In this document: positions 12,961 to 56,945 of the stretch, one piece after another
How the letters are laid out: the number at the start of each line of letters is the position of its first letter
How positions within the stretch are numbered: position 1 is the first letter of the stretch
Source of the DNA: Ulota crispa
Taxonomy: Eukaryota; Streptophyta; Bryopsida; Orthotrichales; Orthotrichaceae
DNA: 64,000 nucleotides
Reading direction: 5' to 3'
Assembly (NCBI GenBank): GCA_963920765.1
Contig: OY987244.1
Coordinates: forward strand, 30,174,358-30,238,357
Notes under the pieces: model-generated
Seen by the model: only the letters and a program-made list of their open reading frames with translations
Told to the model about the DNA's origin: nothing
Database searches by the model: none
Made by a program: the position numbers and the translations under genes

Positions 12961-13924
12961 CTTTTAAAGCTTACAAAAATATTTTATAAGATTGTTTTTT
13001 TTTAAATTCATTTGGTTAGTAGTAGAAGGAAAAATACTAAAAATGCCCTTTAAGTCTTTCAAAATATCAAGTTTATGCCGAAAATATTTGAAACATAAAA
13101 AATATTCTTTATTTTTAGTAGGAATATCAATTATACTCTTATTATTTTGGAAAAATAATAAAAATGCTCTTCTATTTTGAAATGTTAAATATATCCTTGT
13201 GTTGTTTGAAATGTAAAAATTACCTTTGGTTTCTTGTAAGAATTTGCATTAAACCATACACTTGGTTATCATATAACACAAAGATATAAATAATTTAAAA
13301 TAGTTGAGGAGCATTTTTAATATTTTCCCAATATATTAGAAGCATGGTTGATATTTATACGAAAAGGAAAGATATTTTTGATACTTTTAATCCTTGAGGG
13401 ACATATATGATTTTTTCAAAGAATTGAGGAGCATCTTTTATATTTGTTTGTAAAGAAATTTTGGTATGTAAAACAACACATTGTTGTACTTTTTATATAA
13501 AATTTTGTTGAATTAGTGAAGTTGTGTCCAAAAGTGTCCAGATCAACAGAAAACTATTGATTTTTTTGTTATTATGGTCATGTTTTTACTTGACTTTAAA
13601 GGCTGCTAATTTTAAATCTAACCAAATTGTGAAAAGTAAAGAAAATAAAACCAGTCAATGTACACTCAAACTTCTAAAAGATTCTATTTTTTTGAAAACT
13701 TCTTTTATTTTTGAAAACTTCAAAACATTTTAATGAGGTCCAAAAAGATTCTAGAAAGATTTCAAAAACAAACCTAAACTATTGTAATAGTTTTTTAATT
13801 AAATTTTTTTTTAAAGTATTTTGATGAATTACAAAAAGATTCCTAAAGGACTCTAATTCAAGTCTAAGAGGTTCTATTTCTATAAATATTTTGAAGTACT
13901 TTAACAAATTTCATAAAGATTTTA

Positions 13925-14580
13925 AAAAGATTCTCAAAGATTCCAAAAAGGTTCTTGAAAATTCTCAGAGATTCTCAAAGATTTTTAAAATTTCCAAAAA
14001 GATTCTCAAAAGATTCACAAAGTTTCTTAAAGATTCTTGAAGCTTCTCAAAGCTTCTCGGAAGATTCCAAGAAGATTCTTAAAGGTTTTCAAAAATTCTC
14101 AAAAAAATTCAAAATTCCTAGAACAATTCCAAAGATTCTCAAATATTCCAAACCATTCTCAAAGATTTTCAAGAATTCTCAAAAATTTCTAAAAGATTCT
14201 CAAGAATTCTCAAAGATTCCTAAAAGATTCTCAAAGATTCCAAGAAGATTCTCAAAGATTTCCAAACATTCTCAAACATTTTCAAAGATTCCAAAAAAAC
14301 TTGAAAAGGTTCTCAAAGATTTCCAAAGATTCTCAAAGATTCTCAAAGATTCTCAATTGTCCTCAAACATTCTCAAAGATTCCAAAAAAACTTGAAAACA
14401 TTCCCAAAGATTCCAAAGATTCTCAAGGATTCCTAAAAGATTCTCAAAGATTCCAAGAAGATTATCAAAGATTCTTAAACATTCTTAAAAATCCTAAAAA
14501 GATTCTCAATGATTCCCAAAAGATTTTTAAAAATTCTTAAAAATTCACAAAAAATTCCCAAAAGATTCCAAAATTTCTGT
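13925..14580. repeat. Degenerate satellite, unit about 11-14 bases
   Basis: About 650 bases of variants of ctcaaagattcc / aaaagattctcaaagattcc. It stays open over long distances in plus-strand frames only because the unit lacks stops. A copy of the element's right subterminal sequence (14585-14705) also occurs at about 13455-13570, bracketing the array. Confidence 0.8.
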
Positions 14581-14729
14581 TGATTTAAATAATGGTGTTC
14601 AAATCAATAGAACGTATTTAGTTTTTTATAGAATTATGTTAAATTAGTCAATTTGCGTGCACAAATGCCCAAATCAACAAGAAACTATTAGTTTTCTGTT
14701 ATTTTGGACAGAATTTTCTACTAGTGACT

Positions 14730-22222: not shown

Positions 22223-23144
22223 TTAACCCCTAAAGGACCAAGCAAAGTTTTTACCAAAAACTCTTCAAAACTGTCATTTTTAGATATCAACCAAATTTGA
22301 AAACAAAAACATTTTAAAGCATATTTGACTGTAGGATCTTGTAGAAGAATAGTTTTAGAAGATGTGGAAAAAATTTCAGAGTTTTCCACCGAGTGGATTG
22401 GAAGTTAGGATGATTTGAATGTTCAAAAACGTCTTGTGAAAAACCAAGTAGCTACCCTTCAGAAGATGAAATTCCTAAGGAAAAAAGGCCATGTGGGTGG
22501 TGCTTCTCTAAATTCCTTATTCCACCCAAGTAAAGTACATGTCAAAAAAGTTTCAAATCATTTGGAGTTGTATAATATATGGAAAAAAATTAGTAAGTAA
22601 AAAGAAGTAAAGAATGATTCAAAACACTAAATTGTTAAGAATTTAATTATGGAAATGAAAATTGCCAATCTCAATGGTCATAATGTTGTCATAAACAATA
22701 TTCATCCTTTGGTTTTGTTTTTTTTCCAAAATGTTGAAAATTGAGTAAAATAAAGGACTTCAAAGTTTATTTTGGAGTAGAGAATCCATAACTGCCCGCA
22801 AACAAAAAATCCTCATAACTTTCATCTCGTTAATCCAAATGGAATGATTCAAAGCTTCCTACATTCACATGAATCTCTCAAACCGATTTAAAAATTTTGT
22901 TTTTGAAAAAAGTGATTTTTAAAAATCTGCCTAGGCTGCCCCTCAAATGGAAAAAACAACATATTAGGCCATAACTTTTTACTCATAATTCCAAAATGTC
23001 ATGAAATTTAGTGCTTATGAAAGATAAACCTTGTCCCCACATTCTATTAAAATTTCAGCCTAAAATATGAAAAGCTCCAATCACAAGTACCTGCCCGGAA
23101 TCGCTATGTTTCTAAAAAATAGAGTCTGGTCCTTTAGGGGTTAA
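22223..23144 (+). mobile_element. Long TTAA-bounded element (piggyBac-like), copy B
   Basis: TTAA at both ends (22223-22226, 23141-23144) with inverted termini CCCCTAAAGGACCA and TGGTCCTTTAGGGG, essentially perfect. 922 bases, no transposase. The interior aligns with copies E, F and J (shared agtaagtaaaaagaagta, aattgagtaaaataaaggac). Confidence 0.75.
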
Positions 23145-39737: not shown

Positions 39738-40652
39738 TTAATCCCAAGAGGACTGAGCCATTTTTTCACTGAAAATCACTTAAAACTGCCACTTTTGGGG
39801 GTTAGTAAGAAGGTAATTTTTTAAAAAATTTGGAAAATCCAACCATAAAATCTTGCCCTAGACTGGATTAGGTACTTGTGGAAAAAAAATCAAGTCATTC
39901 CAGATGGACATGAGTGAGATATTTACGTCTAAAGTGAAAAGAAAAGTTTATATTCATGCTACCCCAAAATTTCAGAAGCCTTTGATCACTCTTATAACAA
40001 AAAAGTTGCTCTATGCAACTTTGCGCTTTATTTTTCCCATGTAGGAGATCAAGTTAGCTATGTGTCAAAGAATTTTCAAATCAATTGGAACTATACAACA
40101 CACGGGAAAAAATAGTAAGTAAAAAGAAGTAGAGAATGAGTCAAATCACTAAATTGTTAAGAGTTTAATTGTGGAAATGAAAAATGCTAATCCCAACGGT
40201 GATAATGTTGTGATAAACAATCTACTTCCTTAGGTTTAATTATTTTTCCAAAATATTGAAAATTGAGTAAAATAAAGGACTTCAAAGTTTATTTTAGAGT
40301 AGAGAATCCTTAGCTACCCGCAAACAAAATCTCCTTAAACTTTCATCTCACAGATTGAAATTGAATGATTCAAAGCTTCTCACCTATTAAAAAATCCAAA
40401 GAACCAATTTCAAATTTTAATTTAAAAAAATTTAATTTTTAAAAAAGTTTTTGGGCTGCTTGGATGGGCAGTCTTCCCCAAAATTTCAGAAATTCTTGCG
40501 TAACTTCTTCAATAATTGTTGGAATGAGGAAAAAATTAGATGCCCACTTAGATCTTTGAATTTCCCACCTTCAATAAAAGTTTTAGAAAATCACACAAAG
40601 TAGCTTATCCAAAGGTACATGCCCAAACTCCCAACGATACTTTAGGGATTAA
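39738..40652 (+). mobile_element. Long TTAA-bounded element, copy E
   Basis: TTAA at 39738-39741 and 40649-40652 with diverged termini TCCCAAGAGGAC and TACTTTAGGGA. Its interior is closely related to copy B and, inverted, to F and J. Confidence 0.65.
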
Positions 40653-41800: not shown

Positions 41801-41902
41801 TAAGATAAATGGCAAATAAAGGTGTGAGAAACTTTATGAATAGTGACTGATTCATGGACAAAATATAGAATTTTTTTATAGAATTGCACCAATTTCTTTT
41901 GC

Positions 41903-42842
41903 TTAACCCCTACATGACCATTGTCCCTTCGGGGGACAAGTTGGACTGCGGGCATGTACCTATGGCTAAACTACTTTGTGTGATTTTTTGAAACTTTTAT
42001 TGAAGGTGGGGAATTCAAAGATCTATGTGGGCATCTAATTTTTCTTCATTCCGACGTTTGATGAAGAAGTTATGCATGGATATATGAAAATTTGAGGAGG
42101 GCTACTTGTTTGGGCAGCCCAAGAACTTTTTTGAAATTACACTTTTTTAAATTAAAATTTGAAACTAGTTCTTTAGATTTTTTTAATATGTGGGAAGCTT
42201 TGAATCATTCAATTTCAATCAATGAGATGAAAGTAATGAGGAGTTTTTGTTTGCAGGCACTTATGGATTCTCTACTCTAAAATAAACTTTGAGGTCCTTT
42301 AATTTACTCAATTTTCAATGTTTTGGAAAATAAATTAAACCAAAGGAAGTAGATTGTTCATCACAACATTATAACTGTTGGGATTTGCAAGTTTCATTTC
42401 AATAATTAAATTATTAACAATTTAGTGTTTTGACTCATTTGCTACTTCTTTTTACTTACTATTTTTTCCCGTGTGTTGTATAGTTCCAATTGATTTGAAA
42501 AAAAAATTCGACACATACCTAACTTGATCTCCTACATGGAAAAAATACAGCGCAACTTTGGGTAGAGCAAGTTTTTTGTTGTAAGAGTGGTCAAAGGCTT
42601 CTGAAATTTTTGGGTAGCATGGCAAAAAACTTCTTTTTCTTCACTTTAGATGTAAATATCTCACTCTTCTCCATCTAGAATGAGCTAATTTTTTCCGCAA
42701 GTATGTCTTCTAGTTTGGGGCAAGATCCTACAGTTGGATTTTCCAAAAACAAAACAAAAATTCCCTTTTTACCAAACCTCCTAGAAGTGGTAGTTTTTAG
42801 TGATTTTCACAAAAAAAAGGGCTTGGTCCTCTAGGGGGTTAA
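41903..42842 (-). mobile_element. Long TTAA-bounded element, copy F
   Basis: TTAA-CCCCTACATGACC on the left and GGTCCTCTAGGGGG-TTAA on the right. The interior is inverse to copies B and E and parallel to J. Its right TTAA is shared with copy G. Confidence 0.75.
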
Positions 42843-46837: not shown

Positions 46838-47234
46838 AAGGTAGGCGCACCCATAAGCGTGGAAATAAGGGTTTTGGAGTAGGTTAAACAATTGCCTAAC
46901 TTTGAAAAAAATACTGTAAGTTAGGAAATGGAAACCAAAAATATTGGCATCAATTTCAACTTTCCAACTGCAAACATTTGTTCACAAAGATTTTTCAAAG
47001 TCCAAAATCACTGAAATTGTAGGAACCATGTGTAAGAGATGCTAAATACAAGGCTTGTTGGTTCTTAAATAGTGAGATGGGTACTCCAAACCTCATGCTA
47101 GTCACCCACAACCATCACTTCATTACCCATAACCATCACTCAGTCACCCACAACCATTTGTTTTTTTATTGATTAGCCCTGCCACTGTCAGGTGACGGGC
47201 ATGGGGATGCAATGCTTATGGATGCTACTACCTT
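46838..47234. mobile_element. AAGGTAGG-type MITE, adjacent to the copia element
   Basis: Inverted ends AAGGTAGGCGCACCCATAAG and CTTATGGATGCTACTACCTT; the interior is alignable with 6985-7413. It ends a few bases before the copia target duplication. Confidence 0.7.
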
Positions 47235-47241
47235 ACAAGAT

Positions 47242-47246
47242 GTTTG
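47242..47246. repeat. Target site duplication GTTTG (left)
   Basis: Matches 52039-52043. Joining the flanks at this pentamer recreates sequence found at 5457-5480. Confidence 0.75.
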
Positions 47247-47442
47247 TATTGGAGAATAGTGCTGGAATCCTACAGCGACTATCTGAGAGAGACACTTGCT
47301 GAACAAGACAAAGGTTTACGTTGTCTTAAGTACTAATACAATGACCTAATCACTACGACCTAACTACGCCTCCATGGATGGATCCTATAAGACTAGATGA
47401 ATATATTGTGGTACAGGATGAATACCTAATTTTATGCTAACA
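47247..47442 (-). repeat. 3' LTR
   Basis: 196 bases. Read on the minus strand it begins TGTTAGCATAAA and ends TCTCCAATA, a mutated or variant form of the usual CA end. It matches 51864-52038 with few differences. Confidence 0.8.
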
Positions 47443-47450
47443 CCCCCTTT
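47443..47450 (-). other. Polypurine tract
   Basis: AAAGGGGG on the minus strand, directly abutting the 3' LTR start TGTTAGC; plus-strand priming site of the retrotransposon. Confidence 0.75.
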
Positions 47451-47456
47451 CAATCT

Positions 47457-47966
47457 ATGATTGCCCTTGTTACTTGTTTTGTTGTTGCAGATATGGCACA
47501 GGTGCAGATGTGGAGTGTGGATTGTCTGAGAGAGATTGTGAGTCATCTTTCAGTGTTGGGGTTGTTATGCTTCTTCTTGTGGAGTTGTTGCAAACTGGTG
47601 GGCCGAGCGGTCTTGTTGTGTAGCAGGTGGTTGGGCTTGGCGCTTGAGGGCCATTTTTGCACTATGGAAGATGAGTTTGCTCCTGCCAATGTTGATGTTG
47701 AGGCACAGAGCATGGCGATGGCATATGCCGCTCAGAAGCCAGAGCGATTATTTGCGTCTCGTGAAGTAGAAGGGTCGAGGCGGCAATTCTCAGCTCGGAG
47801 CGATGCTGGAGCCAAGAGGAAGATCTACGTTGTCAGACGAGGTCAAATTCCGGGGTTGTACTTCACGTGGGATGATTGTTCCCGTGAAGTTACTGGTTTC
47901 AAGGGAGCAGAACATAAAAGTTTTAGGACATTGCATGAGGCAAAAGCATATCTGTATGGAGGGTAG
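47457..47966 (+). CDS. Antisense ORF in the copia element with an RNase H1-type hybrid-binding domain
   Basis: Intact 169-residue frame, opposite to gag-pol, starting six bases from the polypurine tract and ending three bases from the pol stop, so it fills the whole space. Residues 122-166 (KIYVVRRGQIPGLYFTWDDC, then EVTGFKGAEHKSFRTLHEAK) match the hybrid-binding or viroplasmin-like domain found at the N-terminus of eukaryotic RNase H1 and in the inclusion-body protein of caulimoviruses; it binds RNA/DNA or double-stranded RNA. Residues 27-56 are hydrophobic and Leu/Cys-rich, perhaps a membrane segment. No RNase H catalytic domain is attached. Antisense transcription would have to start in the adjacent LTR or flank. 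Whether it is expressed is unknown. A captured host fragment is the main alternative. Confidence 0.75.
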   Translation: MIALVTCFVVADMAQVQMWSVDCLREIVSHLSVLGLLCFFLWSCCKLVGRAVLLCSRWLGLALEGHFCTMEDEFAPANVDVEAQSMAMAYAAQKPERLFASREVEGSRRQFSARSDAGAKRKIYVVRRGQIPGLYFTWDDCSREVTGFKGAEHKSFRTLHEAKAYLYGG

Positions 47967-47969
47967 TTT

Positions 47970-50900
47970 CTAGGATTCTACAAGTAGTGGCAGTATCTTA
48001 GTTGTGCTGTCAATGTCTATCAACTGTTGTAATCTAAGTGCCATTTGATATTGTTCAAATTTAATATGACCTAATGACTTTGTGAGAGCATCTGCCAATT
48101 GTTCTTGTATAGGAATGTAACGCAATTGGATCTCCCCCTCTAAAATTCTTTCTCTAATGAAGTGATAGTGGATTTCAATGTACTTGGAGCAAGCATGGAA
48201 GATAAGATCTTGCGCTAGTTTCATGGCTGCTTGATTGTCGCAATGCAGGGTTATCTTGGAATCTGGAATTTTAGGGTTTGGTGGCTAGAGCTCTTGGACG
48301 AGTCGATGCAGCCACACGGCTTCTTAGGCCCCGTTGCTCAAGGCTCTATATTCAGATTCGGTTGATGAGCGTGATACAGTAAGTTGCCTTTTGCTTTGCC
48401 ACGCTATGGGTCCATTTGTTAGGGTAAAGATATAAGCACCAGTAGATCTCCTTGTTTCAACGCATGATCCCCAATCAGCGTTGGTGTACCCGGTGATCTG
48501 GATGGAGGTGTGGGCTTTGTACAAAATGCCGAGATCAATTGTGCCTTGGAGGTAGCGCAGTAAGTGCTTCCCTGTATTGAGGTGGGAATCCTGTGGGCTT
48601 GCCATGTAGTTGCTAAGGCGGCTAGCTGCGTGAGTGATATCAGGTCGAGTGACAGTCAGGAATATCAGCTTTCCAATTAACTGGCAGTAGTAGGTGGAGT
48701 TCACTGGAGGAGATTGCATATCTGTCACTAGGACATGGTCTTCTGGTAGGGGAGTTTTGGCTGGATTGCAATCTTCCATTCTGAAATCACGTAGGATGGA
48801 GGCCGCGTAGTCTCATTGGTAGAGAAAAGTCCCTTGTGTTACTTTTGTAAAGGTGATACCGAGGTAGCACTTGATATAGCCTAAATTGGTCATGTCAAAT
48901 TCTTGATGCAAGAATTGTTTAAGCCAGGAGATCAGGTGTTCAGAGCTACCGGTGATGAAGAGATCGTCAGCATATAGCATATGGATAAGTGTTTCCCCCT
49001 CTTGGTGCGTGTTGTACATGTTGCCATTGGATTTGCTGCGTTGTAGACCTAGGCTTATGAGGGAGGTGTCAATTTGATCATACTAGGCGCATGGGCTCTG
49101 TTTCAAGCTGTAGAGTGACTTATTGAGTCGGTATACTAGCTCTTCTTGTCCATGAGCTTGAAATCTTGGTGGCTGCTTCATGAATACTTGTTCCTTCAAG
49201 AAACCATGCAGGAAGGCGGTACGAATGTCCATGTGGTGGATAGGCCAGCACTTAGCAATGGCGAGTGCAACCGTCGTACGCATTGTAGCCCATTTGATTA
49301 CAAGAGCAACGATATCCGTGTAGTCAATCCCAAGGCGTTGTTCAAACCCTCTTGCGACGAGTTTTGCCTTTTTTACTAGTAGGTTTGTGCTGGTTGCAGG
49401 TTTGCATTTGTATATCCATCTGCAAGTGATGGCTCGCTGGCCTGGTGGAAGTGGTACAAGGGTCCACATTTGATTGTGTTTGATGGAAGCCGTCTCCTTG
49501 TTCATGGCCTGTCTCCATTCGGGATCGAGGTTTGCCTTGGAGAAGGTGATGTCAGCTGCATTCGGGTTAGAGGGACTAAACGTTGAGGGTGGAGCTGGTT
49601 CACATTCGTCAGAGGTGAACAAGCAAACGTCAAATTTGTCAGTGGACATGCAGATATTGTACCCGTCAAGGGGGACATTTTGTCGACGGGGACACTGGGA
49701 TCATTGTGGAGCTGGTGCTTGGGGTGGAGTTGGTTGGGCAGGTGGTGAGGCGGGAAAGGGACTGGTGGGAACTTCATTGGGCATTGATTGTATGGGTGGT
49801 GTGGTGGGTACTGGAGGGGGTGGGTACCATGGTCTGCCCAAGTAGGGTGATTGTATGTCCATCAAGATAGGGTCAAGCAGTGGTTTCATGGTCTCCATTG
49901 CTGGTTGCCCTAGGTTTAATTCATCAAAGCAAACATCTCTCAATATGAGTATTTTCCAACTACAAGGATCATAGCACCGATATGCCTTGCTGCTTTTGTC
50001 ATAATCCAATAGGATTGTGGCAACTGCTTTGGGCTAGAATTTGTCACGACGCTCGTCAGGGACGTGGCAATAGGCTATGCAACCAATGGTACATAGGTGA
50101 TCCAAGTGAGGCTTGGTGCCTATATAGGCATGCTTTGGGGTTTGTTGTTTGAGGGCTCTAGTCGGGAGTATGTTTTGAATATAGTTTGCTATTTTAGCAA
50201 TTTCGTCCCAAAGAGCTGGCAAAATTTTTGTGCTAGTGACTATTGTGCAGATCCTTTCTAGTAAGGTCCGGTTCTTCATTTTGGCCACGCCATTTTGGTG
50301 GGGGGAGTATCCCGCTGTCAGTTGTTGATGGATGCCAAGTGTAGCGTAGTAGGAGACAAAGGCTGTCAAAAGGTATTCACCGCCACAATCACTGCAAAGG
50401 TTTTCAATCTTCTGTGTGGGTGTATCTACCAAGGCCTTGAATTGTTTGAAGTATTCTAAGGTTTAAGATTTCTAGGCTAGTAGGTAGATCCATGTTTTCT
50501 GAGAGAAGTCGTCGGTGAAGGTCAAGATGTACCTGTTACCGGAACGAGACATGATGGGCATCGGCCCACACATGTCCGTGTGAATAAGCTGTAAAGGCTT
50601 GGTGGAGAAAAAATGGCAAAGCTTGGGTATGGGTTCGCGTGATTGTTTCCCAATCATACAAGACGGGCATATGTGTTTGAGAAGAGGTAGAGGTGGGATT
50701 CCTGCAACTAGCTGTTTGTTGGTCATGTGGTAGATACTCTGATAATTCACATGCCCTAGGTGTTTATGCCACACATGGATTTGGTGATTAGGCAGACGTC
50801 TGGCGGGGTGCTGCTCTAGTGGATAGCAAGAAGATAATGAAACAAGGTTGCATTCTAGCGTACTGGTTTGTGGGAGAAGTGAGTGGTTGGGGCGCGTGAC

Positions 50901-51866
50901 TGTCGCAAGCTGTAGTGAGCCTGGGAGACACTGTATACAATAGGGATTGTTTCTAGGATAGCGGGAGCCTGTCATCAGGATTTCTCGGTGATTTTCTCTA
51001 TCAAAGATGATACATCGCGTGGACTCAATGAGGACGGTGTAGCCGATGTCCGTGAGTCAACCAACAAAAAATAGGTTTGTTTTGACACTTGGAACGTATA
51101 AAACTTGACGGATTGGTTTTATTTTCCCTGATGGGCTAGAAATGTTTACAGTTCCATGGCCTACTACCAGCATGGCTTGGCCTGCGGCCGTTCTAATGAA
51201 TGGTATATTAGAAGGGCCTACATTGGTAAGGAGGCTGCGGTTGCCTGTAACATGCAAAGATGCACCAGAATCTAGAAACCAGTCTTGCTCCACATCTTCT
51301 GTGACGCAGGCGTTGATGATTTCCTCTGGGCCATTGTATTTGTCATCAAAAGCGTTGATGCAGGCTTGAAGTGCTAGCTAGGATTCAGCAACTTCTTCTT
51401 CAGGTTCGTCATTGATCTTAGTAATGTTGACATGGTGGCTAGGTGAATTCCTGCATAGCTCCAGGGCGGCCAGTTGGTGTTGAAGTGCCTTGATCTGCTC
51501 TTTGATTGTTGCCACTGTGCAGTTGCAGGAGTAGTGACCCGTCTTCTTGCATTGGTGACAAGTCGCTTGTGTCAAAGGTTATGCGGGTGTAGGAGCGGAG
51601 GTCAGGGTCCTGGTGAGCTGGTTGGTGGAGGGTGGGTCGCGCGATGGAGTAAGGCAACCGCGGGAGTACGAGCGGCCGCCGCGAGGATACTCTTGTGAGT
51701 GTCGGACAAAGTTGACGTCTTGGCGTTTGTCACGTTGAGCCTTGAGGATCCGCCCCTGCTCAATCTGGAGGTGGAGTCCTTCAAGTTCTGGGAAGGTAGG
51801 CCTGCGATCGCGTCCATGTTGGACCATCTTGAAGGTTGCCCAGCTATCCAGGAGGTTGTTGAGTGT
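47970..51866 (-). pseudogene. Copia gag-pol remnants
   Basis: Segments on the minus strand: gag C-terminus (from about 51860; PTFPELEGLHLQIEQGRILK), CCHC knuckle CHQCKKTGHYSCNC (51378-51575), protease WFLDSGASLHVTGN (51057-51293), integrase zinc finger HKHLGH...CPSC and acidic residues in HTDMCGP and TFTDDFS (50472-50975), integrase C-terminal part (50034-50432), RT with MDIRTAFLHGFL (49083-49649) and LYADDLFITG (48813-49019), and RNase H with SSTESEYRAL (48324-48779), ending in YHFIRERILEGEIQLRYIP (47970-48224). The integrase glutamate position reads GVAKMKNRT instead of the usual GVAERKNRT, so the catalytic Glu is replaced by Lys. In RNase H, GYTNADWG replaces the usual DADW. Stops separate most segments. 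Confidence 0.92.
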
Positions 51867-52038
51867 CTACAACAACTATTTGAGAGAGACACTTGCTGAA
51901 CAAGACAAAGGTTTATGTTGTCTTAAGTACTAATACAATGACCTAATCACTACGACCTAACTACGCCTCCATGGATGGATCCTGTAAGACTAGATGAATA
52001 TATTGTGGTATAGGATGAATACCTAATTTATGCTAACA
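51864..52038 (-). repeat. 5' LTR, inner end deleted
   Basis: About 175 of the 196 LTR bases. Similarity to the 3' LTR stops at about 51864, where the sequence runs directly into gag codons (LLDSWATFKM), so the LTR end, primer-binding site and gag start were removed by one deletion. Confidence 0.8.
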
Positions 52039-52043
52039 GTTTG
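52039..52043. repeat. Target site duplication GTTTG (right)
   Basis: Matches 47242-47246. Confidence 0.75.
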
Positions 52044-52265
52044 TCTACCAAAAGTGTTGGTTGTTTTCATACAAGGACCATTTGGTACTTGAAGAAATGA
52101 CTTTATGACGAATGTCAAAAAAATTCAAAAAATCCTAATTGAATAGCAGTATCTTTATAATTTGGCTTGAAATTTACAACTCCAATGGGATTCATGTGCT
52201 ACTCAAGTACCCCATCCATATACAATATAAGAAAGCCTACACAAAACAACAACATTCTTAAGGGA
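52044..52265. repeat. Dispersed repeat, related to 5455-5860
   Basis: Continuation of the repeat into which the copia element inserted; shares aatttacaactccaatggg and attcatgtgctac blocks with the 5.5-kb copy. Confidence 0.6.
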
Positions 52266-55521: not shown

Positions 55522-56006
55522 TTAGTAGGTGAAGCTCAAAAGTTCCCCCGAACATTCCACAATTAGTCTGTTTCCGTTGCAACTAGTGTTTTTTTTGTTA
55601 GTTTAATTTACACTAAATATGGCATTCAAGTTTTCCCACATTAATTTCTTAATATTTTACACTTTGTAAATACTTGTTGATACTACAATAATTTTCATCA
55701 ATAACTATTGCAACAATTAATTTTTAGTGGCTCTTGTAACAACAACAAAGTTGCGGAAAAATAAATTAATGACATCCAAGTTGTAAATTATGTGAAATCT
55801 TACTAGAAAGTTGCATGCACCACCAAGTGGCCAAGCAATGAGTAATGAGATGACTTTCCAAGGTAAGACAACCTAATTGTTTAGGCAACCTAAATGTAAT
55901 TTTTAATGTACTCAATGCAAAAGCGTTCTTTGCAAGGGTAGCAAAGTTGTTTACATTCATGGATATGGATGCCATATATAAAACGTATAAGAAAACTTGT
56001 CTCCCC

Positions 56007-56945
56007 TTAACCCCTGAAGGACTGTTGTCCCTTTGGGGGACAAGTGGGAGTTTGGGCATGTACCTTTGGATAAGCTACTTTGTGTGATTTTTTGAAACTT
56101 TTATTGAAGGTGGGGAATTCAAAGATCTACCTGGGCATCTAATATTTTCCTCATTCCAACAATTATTGAAGAAGTTATGCAAAAATTTCTGAAAATTTGG
56201 AGAGGATTGCCGCTTGGGCAGCCCAAAAACTTCTTTAAAAATTAATTTTTTTAAAATTAAAATCTGAAATTGGTTCTTTAGAATTTTTTATAGGTGAGAA
56301 GCTTTGAATCATTCAATTTCAATCAATGAGATGAAAGTAATGAGGAGTTTTTGTTTGCAGGCAGTTATGGAATCTCTACTCTAAAATAAACTTTGAAGTC
56401 CTTTGTTTTACTCAATTTTCATTGTTTTGGAAAAAAAAATTAAACTAGAGGAAGTAGATTGTTTATCACAACATTTTGACCATTGGGATTTGCAATTTTC
56501 ATTTCCATAATTAAATTCTTAACAGTTCAGTGATTTGACTCATTTGCTACTTCTTTTTACTTACTAATTTTTCCCGTGTGTTGTGTAGTTCCAATTGATT
56601 TGAAAATTCTCCCACACATAGCTAACTGGATTTCACACATGGGAAAAATAAAGCGCAAAGTTGCGTAGAGCAAATTTTTTATTATAAGAGTGGTCAAAGG
56701 CTTCTGAAAATTTTGGGCAGCATGAAAAAAAACTTTTTTTTTCACTTTAAATGTAAATATCTCACTCATCTCCATCTGGAATGACCTGATTTTTTTTTCA
56801 CAAGTACCTAATCTAGTTTAGCGCAAGACATAATGATTGGATTTCCTAAATAAATAAATAAAACTACCTTCCTACTAACCCCCCCCAAAAGTGGCAATTT
56901 TGAGTGATTTTCAGTGAAAAAATGGCTCAATCCTTCAGGAGTTAA
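56007..56945 (-). mobile_element. Long TTAA-bounded element, copy J
   Basis: TTAA-CCCCTGAAGGACTG ... CAATCCTTCAGGAG-TTAA. 939 bases, close in length and sequence to copy F (shared ggtggggaattcaaagatct, tgcaggcagttatgg-type blocks). Confidence 0.75.

Follow-up and report, generated by a model that had tools for sequence, protein, structure and literature searches.

The question raised by this locus is whether a long open reading frame (ORF) lying antisense in a decayed moss retrotransposon is a gene of that element, a recently captured piece of host DNA or a product of chance. The window, by which the whole analysed stretch of 64,000 nucleotides is meant, includes a Copia element on its minus strand, and an ORF of 169 codons was confirmed on the plus strand at positions 47457–47966. 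The ORF sits between the minus-strand end of pol (47970) and the polypurine tract (47443–47450) and fills the gap between them, in agreement with the coordinates given in the initial annotation.

The host element is a Ty1/copia element, with the integrase before the reverse transcriptase (RT), an RVT_2 domain, LTRs and a polypurine tract. The 3' end of pol (RNase H tail; 47970–48224, minus strand) adjoins the stop of the ORF and was recognized from its position and from relatives, being without a Pfam match of its own. Upstream of it on the same strand lie broken pieces of the RT/RNase H region (48324–49649; RVT_2 at 49083–49649, E 4.5e-39; no Pfam match at 48324–48779) and of the integrase, pre-integrase and zinc-knuckle (CCHC) region (50034–51575; gag_pre-integrs, E 8.4e-10). 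The rve match remained below its cut-off, and the CCHC motif was read from the sequence in the piece 51378–51575, which has no Pfam match. Three of the five pol/gag pieces tested were without a Pfam match, RVT_2 and gag_pre-integrs being above their cut-offs. The element is wrecked to the extent that eight separate open pieces served as queries.

The polypurine tract AAAGGGGG (47443–47450, minus strand) abuts the LTR, which starts with TGTTAG at 47442, and most relatives are similarly arranged. The 3' LTR covers 47241–47442 on the minus strand, of which 47270–47442 aligns with the 5' LTR, the end at 47241 being set by analogy with the related copy L024. The 5' LTR (51867–52038, minus strand) is apparently truncated. 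The distance from it to the zinc-knuckle piece is about 290 nt, compared with about 980 nt in L025, and because of this the primer binding site and the 5' part of gag, like the LTR end, have probably been deleted. The LTR pair is 96% identical (six substitutions in 172 aligned positions, K2P 0.036). No target-site duplication was visible at 47230–47270 and 52030–52120, where the 5 nt flanking the two LTR ends differ, and the copy may be rearranged. Among the 12 relatives with two recognisable LTRs, the LTR starts with TGTT in nine, and a putative primer site of tRNA-Met type, TGGTATCAGAGC, is found next to the 5' LTR in three; eight have a near match, and in L040 none is visible.

The element is flanked by direct repeats at 41902–42638 and 56006–56741, about 14.1 kb apart and 83–90% identical, and looks like a nested insertion within a larger LTR element. 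Related sequences in inverted orientation lie at 39817–40633 and 22585–22925, and the window also includes a short-repeat array at 13879–14608 with spacings mostly in steps of about 10 nt.

The length of the ORF alone is only mildly unusual: when its 510 nt were resampled 5000 times with a Markov model, 105 of the resamples had an open stretch of at least 160 codons in any of the six frames. A chance ORF is nevertheless ruled out by the match to PF01693 and by the conservation of this domain elsewhere. The profile matched residues 122–165 (47820–47951, plus strand) with E 1.2e-16 and 61.1 bits against a curated cut-off of 21, and all five genome relatives tested also exceeded the cut-off (50.1–61.4 bits). 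The initial description was thus upheld in that the Copia element has an antisense ORF and that this encodes a hybrid-binding domain of RNase H1 type. Three relatives of solved structure were found, and each is either an N-terminal domain of RNase H1 or a whole RNase H1. The domain search of the ORF gave PF01693 only, the catalytic RNase H domain being absent. Full conservation begins at the second methionine, residue 13 (47493), which is shared with the protein P0004 and the copy L004, and for this reason the product is probably a protein of 157 aa starting there. Residues 27–45 (47535–47591, plus strand) form a hydrophobic segment with a Kyte-Doolittle 19-residue mean of 2.01, a candidate membrane anchor.

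When the structure was modelled on the basis of 20 aligned sequences, the hybrid-binding domain reached a pLDDT near 95. The modelled domain superposed on 3bsu, the hybrid-binding domain of human RNase H1, with an rmsd of 0.8 over 45 columns and, for 3bsu_H, a TM score of 0.90 by target length. A helix predicted at residues 33–69 overlaps the hydrophobic segment. Folding from the single sequence produced a poor model (mean pLDDT 59.5).

In the human domain, Trp43 and Lys59 are contact residues, and Lys60 is a DNA contact. Tyr29 and Lys60 are named as contacts in PMC7657459. In an alignment of 16 proteins, consisting of 14 chosen from the protein-collection matches together with P0001 and L004, the equivalents of Tyr29 and Trp43 are Tyr and Trp in all 16, and 15 have Lys or Arg at the place of Lys59. 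The place of Lys60 is occupied by Ser in 14 of these chosen proteins, from which it follows that affinity could differ. The 19 genome copies compared have Tyr at the first place without exception, Lys at the place of Lys59 in 13 and Ser at that of Lys60 in 17. At the place of Trp43 they have Trp in 13, a stop in four (L021, L022, L024 and L032) and another residue in two. The stops at this conserved place would fit C-to-T decay of methylated copies.

When the ORF of the window was compared with the host genome in all six frames, 39 rows resulted, which represent 37 distinct places, the window's own included, since C5:16910904 and C11:2687413 were second pieces of loci already counted. Queries with two relatives added C10:4529833, C6:11117372 and C3:13262158, raising the number of places to 40. 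In 39 of the 40 the ORF or domain is antisense directly behind Copia pol, so that the search for further members with the ORF at the same place, suggested from the window alone, gave a positive answer. Altogether 20 of the 36 other loci were fetched at about 10 kb, and all 20 have the ORF or the domain on the opposite strand directly behind a Copia RNase H tail.

The genome was also searched, independently, with one pol piece; 150 of 399 candidates were scored, and 70 of the 150 rows were compared with the ORF places. By these coordinates, 34 of the 37 places are antisense downstream of pol, 30 at 321–955 nt and four at 3.6–4.1 kb. An RNase H tail lies close by at all four distant places, at C11:471914 as a weak match of 26 residues, and the spacing in them is therefore probably split by an insertion. 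At the remaining three places, where this comparison had no pol match, pol was seen beside the ORF on closer look. Pol is on the opposite strand also at C10:4529833 and C6:11117372. At C3:13262158 both halves of the domain are present in two frames, separated by about 100 nt (251–513 of L076), and Copia pol was not detected in the approximately 0.8 kb behind the domain. This one split fragment leaves the overall pattern unchanged. Identity of pol between the domain-bearing elements and the window goes down to 34% over the compared piece, and many of the ORF copies have stops.

Copia copies, often with frames that are open over a long stretch, form clusters on all 11 contigs listed (on C8 as two rows only), for instance at C2:36.48–36.59 Mb, C5:25.00–25.08 Mb and C11:2.63–2.70 Mb. 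RLC5 of Physcomitrium is described as forming one such cluster per chromosome, at presumed moss centromeres (PMC7466625). The clustering and the Ceratodon relatives of the protein given below point to a moss as the host.

Relatives of the whole protein were found also outside this genome. A search of the protein collection with P0001 alone found nothing, and two alignment-based searches yielded 97 and 48 proteins, among which bacterial-type RNase H with a PF01693 domain was frequent. The relative P0004 (145 aa) starts at the place of Met13 of the window ORF and matches it at 37% over 91%. The second alignment search added P0099 and P0102 among others, as well as P0100 and P0110 of the moss Ceratodon purpureus. 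Both P0004 and the Ceratodon protein P0100 share the N-terminus, the hydrophobic segment and the domain with the window ORF, P0100 diverging from the other relatives beyond the middle of the domain, and P0099, P0102 and P0104 share the hydrophobic segment and the domain.

On a hydropathy scale, seven of the nine proteins tested have a hydrophobic segment (19-residue mean at least 1.6), the maxima of the other two being 1.34 in P0110 and 0.85 in P0101, which starts later. In a shuffling test of five proteins, 10 to 57 of 2000 shuffles reached equal hydropathy. Nearly all continue with a charged linker and end in the domain. The product thus has about 145–160 aa: its N-terminus is short and is followed by a single conserved hydrophobic segment, 50–72 residues of charged linker and the domain at the C-terminus. 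Other short proteins with this domain have hydrophobic stretches at the C-terminus, P0091 and P0092 (Iris pallida), or at both ends, P0082.

The tree constructed of the RT/RNase H region included 43 pieces and 151 columns; it is unrooted, and six of its 43 rows are unlabelled. The 29 carrier rows represent 28 elements, since L024 forms two of them, and L043, which was examined for the domain, is not among the rows. All 29 rows are on one side of one branch against the eight non-carrier rows (support 97/92; 100% of 200 bootstrap trees), and the fork holding all the carriers, together with the unlabelled L065, has a support of 93/86. Because the carriers are separated from the non-carriers by this one branch, the distribution fits a single old acquisition of the gene. 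The domain profile gave no match (0 of 10) over 1.5–1.9 kb downstream of ten pol-matching elements without an ORF hit, of which L041 is uninformative, being interrupted by a nested younger element. The element nearest by RT (67%), at C11:2699373, was considered as a case of domain loss and is uninformative in this respect: younger nested Copia sequence starts right behind its RT piece.

The initial annotation had proposed comparing dN/dS across the copies. Within the 45-codon domain, third codon positions make up 49% of the differences, and pN/pS was below 1 in all 210 pairs (median 0.40), which are not independent of each other; domain values near 1 were confined to part of the closest pairs, L036/L038 and L025/L031 among them. 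L026 and L031, which have frame breaks, were included in these pairs and excluded from the domain profile and the six-frame control. A search by protein similarity, as used to find these loci, is biased towards conserved copies, and more weight is therefore given to the phase test made over the whole ORF on DNA alignments. Three of the four deep pairs showed an excess of differences at third positions (p = 0.0012, 0.00021 and 0.0032), their upstream flanks being flat; the fourth, L027/L035, was flat over the whole ORF. Among the three closest pairs two were flat, and L036/L038 had an excess at second, not third, positions (p 0.015). A pattern of about this kind is predicted if selection acted long ago and the copies, once dead, decayed. 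In the six-frame control of 19 copies, the coding frame had the highest pairwise amino-acid identity (0.544, the next being 0.436) and the fewest stops (10, against 34–62 in the other frames). These comparisons show that the coding frame has been conserved within the lineage, and to that extent the suggested selection was borne out by both pN/pS and the phase tests.

The same cannot be said of the window copy, in which the open ORF beside a wrecked gag-pol had been taken as a sign of selection. A frame of 157 codons at K2P 0.036 gains no stop with a probability of 0.66–0.71, counting substitutions only. Selection keeping this copy open is therefore unneeded, and its open frame says nothing of selection at the locus.

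On this evidence the gene identity of the antisense ORF is nearly certain, and it is in our view likely to be a lineage-specific accessory gene of a Ty1/copia lineage, located antisense between pol and the polypurine tract. The hybrid-binding domains of other proteins bind both RNA/DNA hybrid and dsRNA, the latter weaker or stronger (PMC7657459, PMC5902531), and by analogy there is a good probability that the product binds RNA:DNA hybrid or dsRNA. As the ORF is conserved, we lean towards a role that benefits the element. The protein would be made from an antisense transcript whose start lies in the 3' LTR or close to it, and its domain would bind the RNA:DNA hybrids of the element, that is, reverse-transcription intermediates, or dsRNA. 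Such binding would protect or position these molecules in favour of the element. The hydrophobic helix could hold the product at a membrane, a tethering to which we give somewhat less than even odds. Antisense promoters have precedents in plant LTR elements, AtRE1 among them (PMC7264820). A conserved antisense promoter motif was not seen in the 21 upstream regions: TATAWR is present in ten at scattered distances, once (L040) as a TA run, and is unconvincing as a TATA-like motif.

The conserved protein could also be read in other ways. If it were a dsRNA binder, the antisense transcript would pair with the RNA of the element and the domain would sequester the duplex, shielding the element from RNA silencing. 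The yeast hybrid-binding domain binds dsRNA tighter than hybrid, while those of human and fly prefer the hybrid (PMC7657459). The corresponding part of CaMV P6 binds hybrids and dsRNA in vitro, yet the domain is dispensable for silencing suppression in CaMV (PMC5902531), and a shield of this kind seems unlikely to us. Rather improbable is also a self-limiting regulator, an antisense protein which restrains its own element and keeps the copy number low. For other plant LTR elements, a regulatory function of antisense ORFs has been proposed (PMC7264820, PMC11963269). Of the 150 Copia matches scored, many fall into a clustered group that has long open frames and lacks an adjacent ORF hit, which makes the carriers the less common and more decayed Copia elements in the genome. 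Low numbers and decay are, however, equally expected of any old lineage, and restraint itself was not seen.

Antisense transcription alone can regulate retroelements (PMC7264820), and the antisense RNA might matter without its protein, or the DNA might be conserved for some other reason, the protein being a by-product. This is largely refuted by conservation that tracks the codon positions of the antisense frame, and on the sense strand no open stretch at the ORF position in the window exceeds 63 codons; we consider it very improbable. The RNase H1 type of the domain would also suit a host RNase H1 exon that was inserted by chance, or captured recently, in the window copy only. The recent capture put forward in the initial annotation is contradicted by the 39 places with the same antisense position, by their restriction to one side of a single branch and by the relatives of the same layout outside this genome, which leave it next to no probability. 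An accessory gene of the lineage is the reading followed here.

Grande and RIRE2 are Ty3/gypsy elements. Together with Retand, which has a Transposase_28 domain, and PvRetro13, they likewise have an antisense ORF (aORF-3R) between pol and the 3' LTR that is kept across the family or lineage, and the domain of the Retand ORF is predicted to bind DNA (PMC11963269, PMC7264820). Retand is a Ty3/gypsy element as well (PMC11963269), in contrast to the Ty1/copia element of the window with its PF01693 domain. Among Copia elements, SIRE resembles the window element in having an extra ORF downstream of pol, but its ORFs are heterogeneous, in forward orientation and counted only from 250 codons up (PMC6317226). 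The 3' ORF(-) of sunflower Athila is also an extra 3' ORF, with a single predicted membrane helix in its product; this product has no similarity to known domains, and the element belongs to another superfamily, Ty3/gypsy (PMC11728184). On the extra ORFs of rotifer elements, nothing about a hybrid-binding domain was seen in PMC5408684. Antisense extra ORFs behind pol are thus known (Retand, Grande, RIRE2), and a Copia antisense gene with PF01693 was not found described in the literature searched, which was mostly open-access.

The same hybrid-binding domain is found in eukaryotic RNase H1 (3bsu, 1qhk), where it is N-terminal, whereas the window ORF lacks the catalytic domain and has the hybrid-binding domain at its C-terminus, behind the hydrophobic segment. 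It is also found in a reverse-transcribing plant agent, in the P6 transactivator/viroplasmin of caulimoviruses, which is sense-encoded. Eleven viral structural models were matched at E 0.001 or better; eight of them bear the name of P6 transactivator/viroplasmin, six of these being from caulimovirids. The low-rmsd viral matches span only about 45–55 columns, corresponding to the domain and not to the full architecture of P6. The caulimovirid hits have up to 531 residues, in contrast to the short, antisense-encoded window protein with its hydrophobic helix, and P6 has translation functions (PMC5902531). Tentatively, and with less than even probability, the moss Copia lineage may have evolved a viroplasmin-like factor, a membrane-held, antisense-encoded hybrid binder that would gather reverse-transcription intermediates at a membrane, convergent with the P6 of plant pararetroviruses. 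If this were true, some annotated moss genes for an 'RNase H1 N-terminal domain' would be these retrotransposon genes.

Conserved antisense genes without known function are present in plant LTR elements (PMC7264820). In the present case the structure of the domain is solved and its ligand can be tested, so that the function of an antisense retrotransposon gene comes within direct reach. The Copia antisense gene occupies the whole of a gap of about 0.5 kb. A large plant survey counted extra ORFs only if they had at least 250 codons (PMC6317226) and would for that reason have missed it, which suggests that surveys limited in this way miss conserved short ORFs. Among the genes annotated in mosses, some may in fact belong to retrotransposons.
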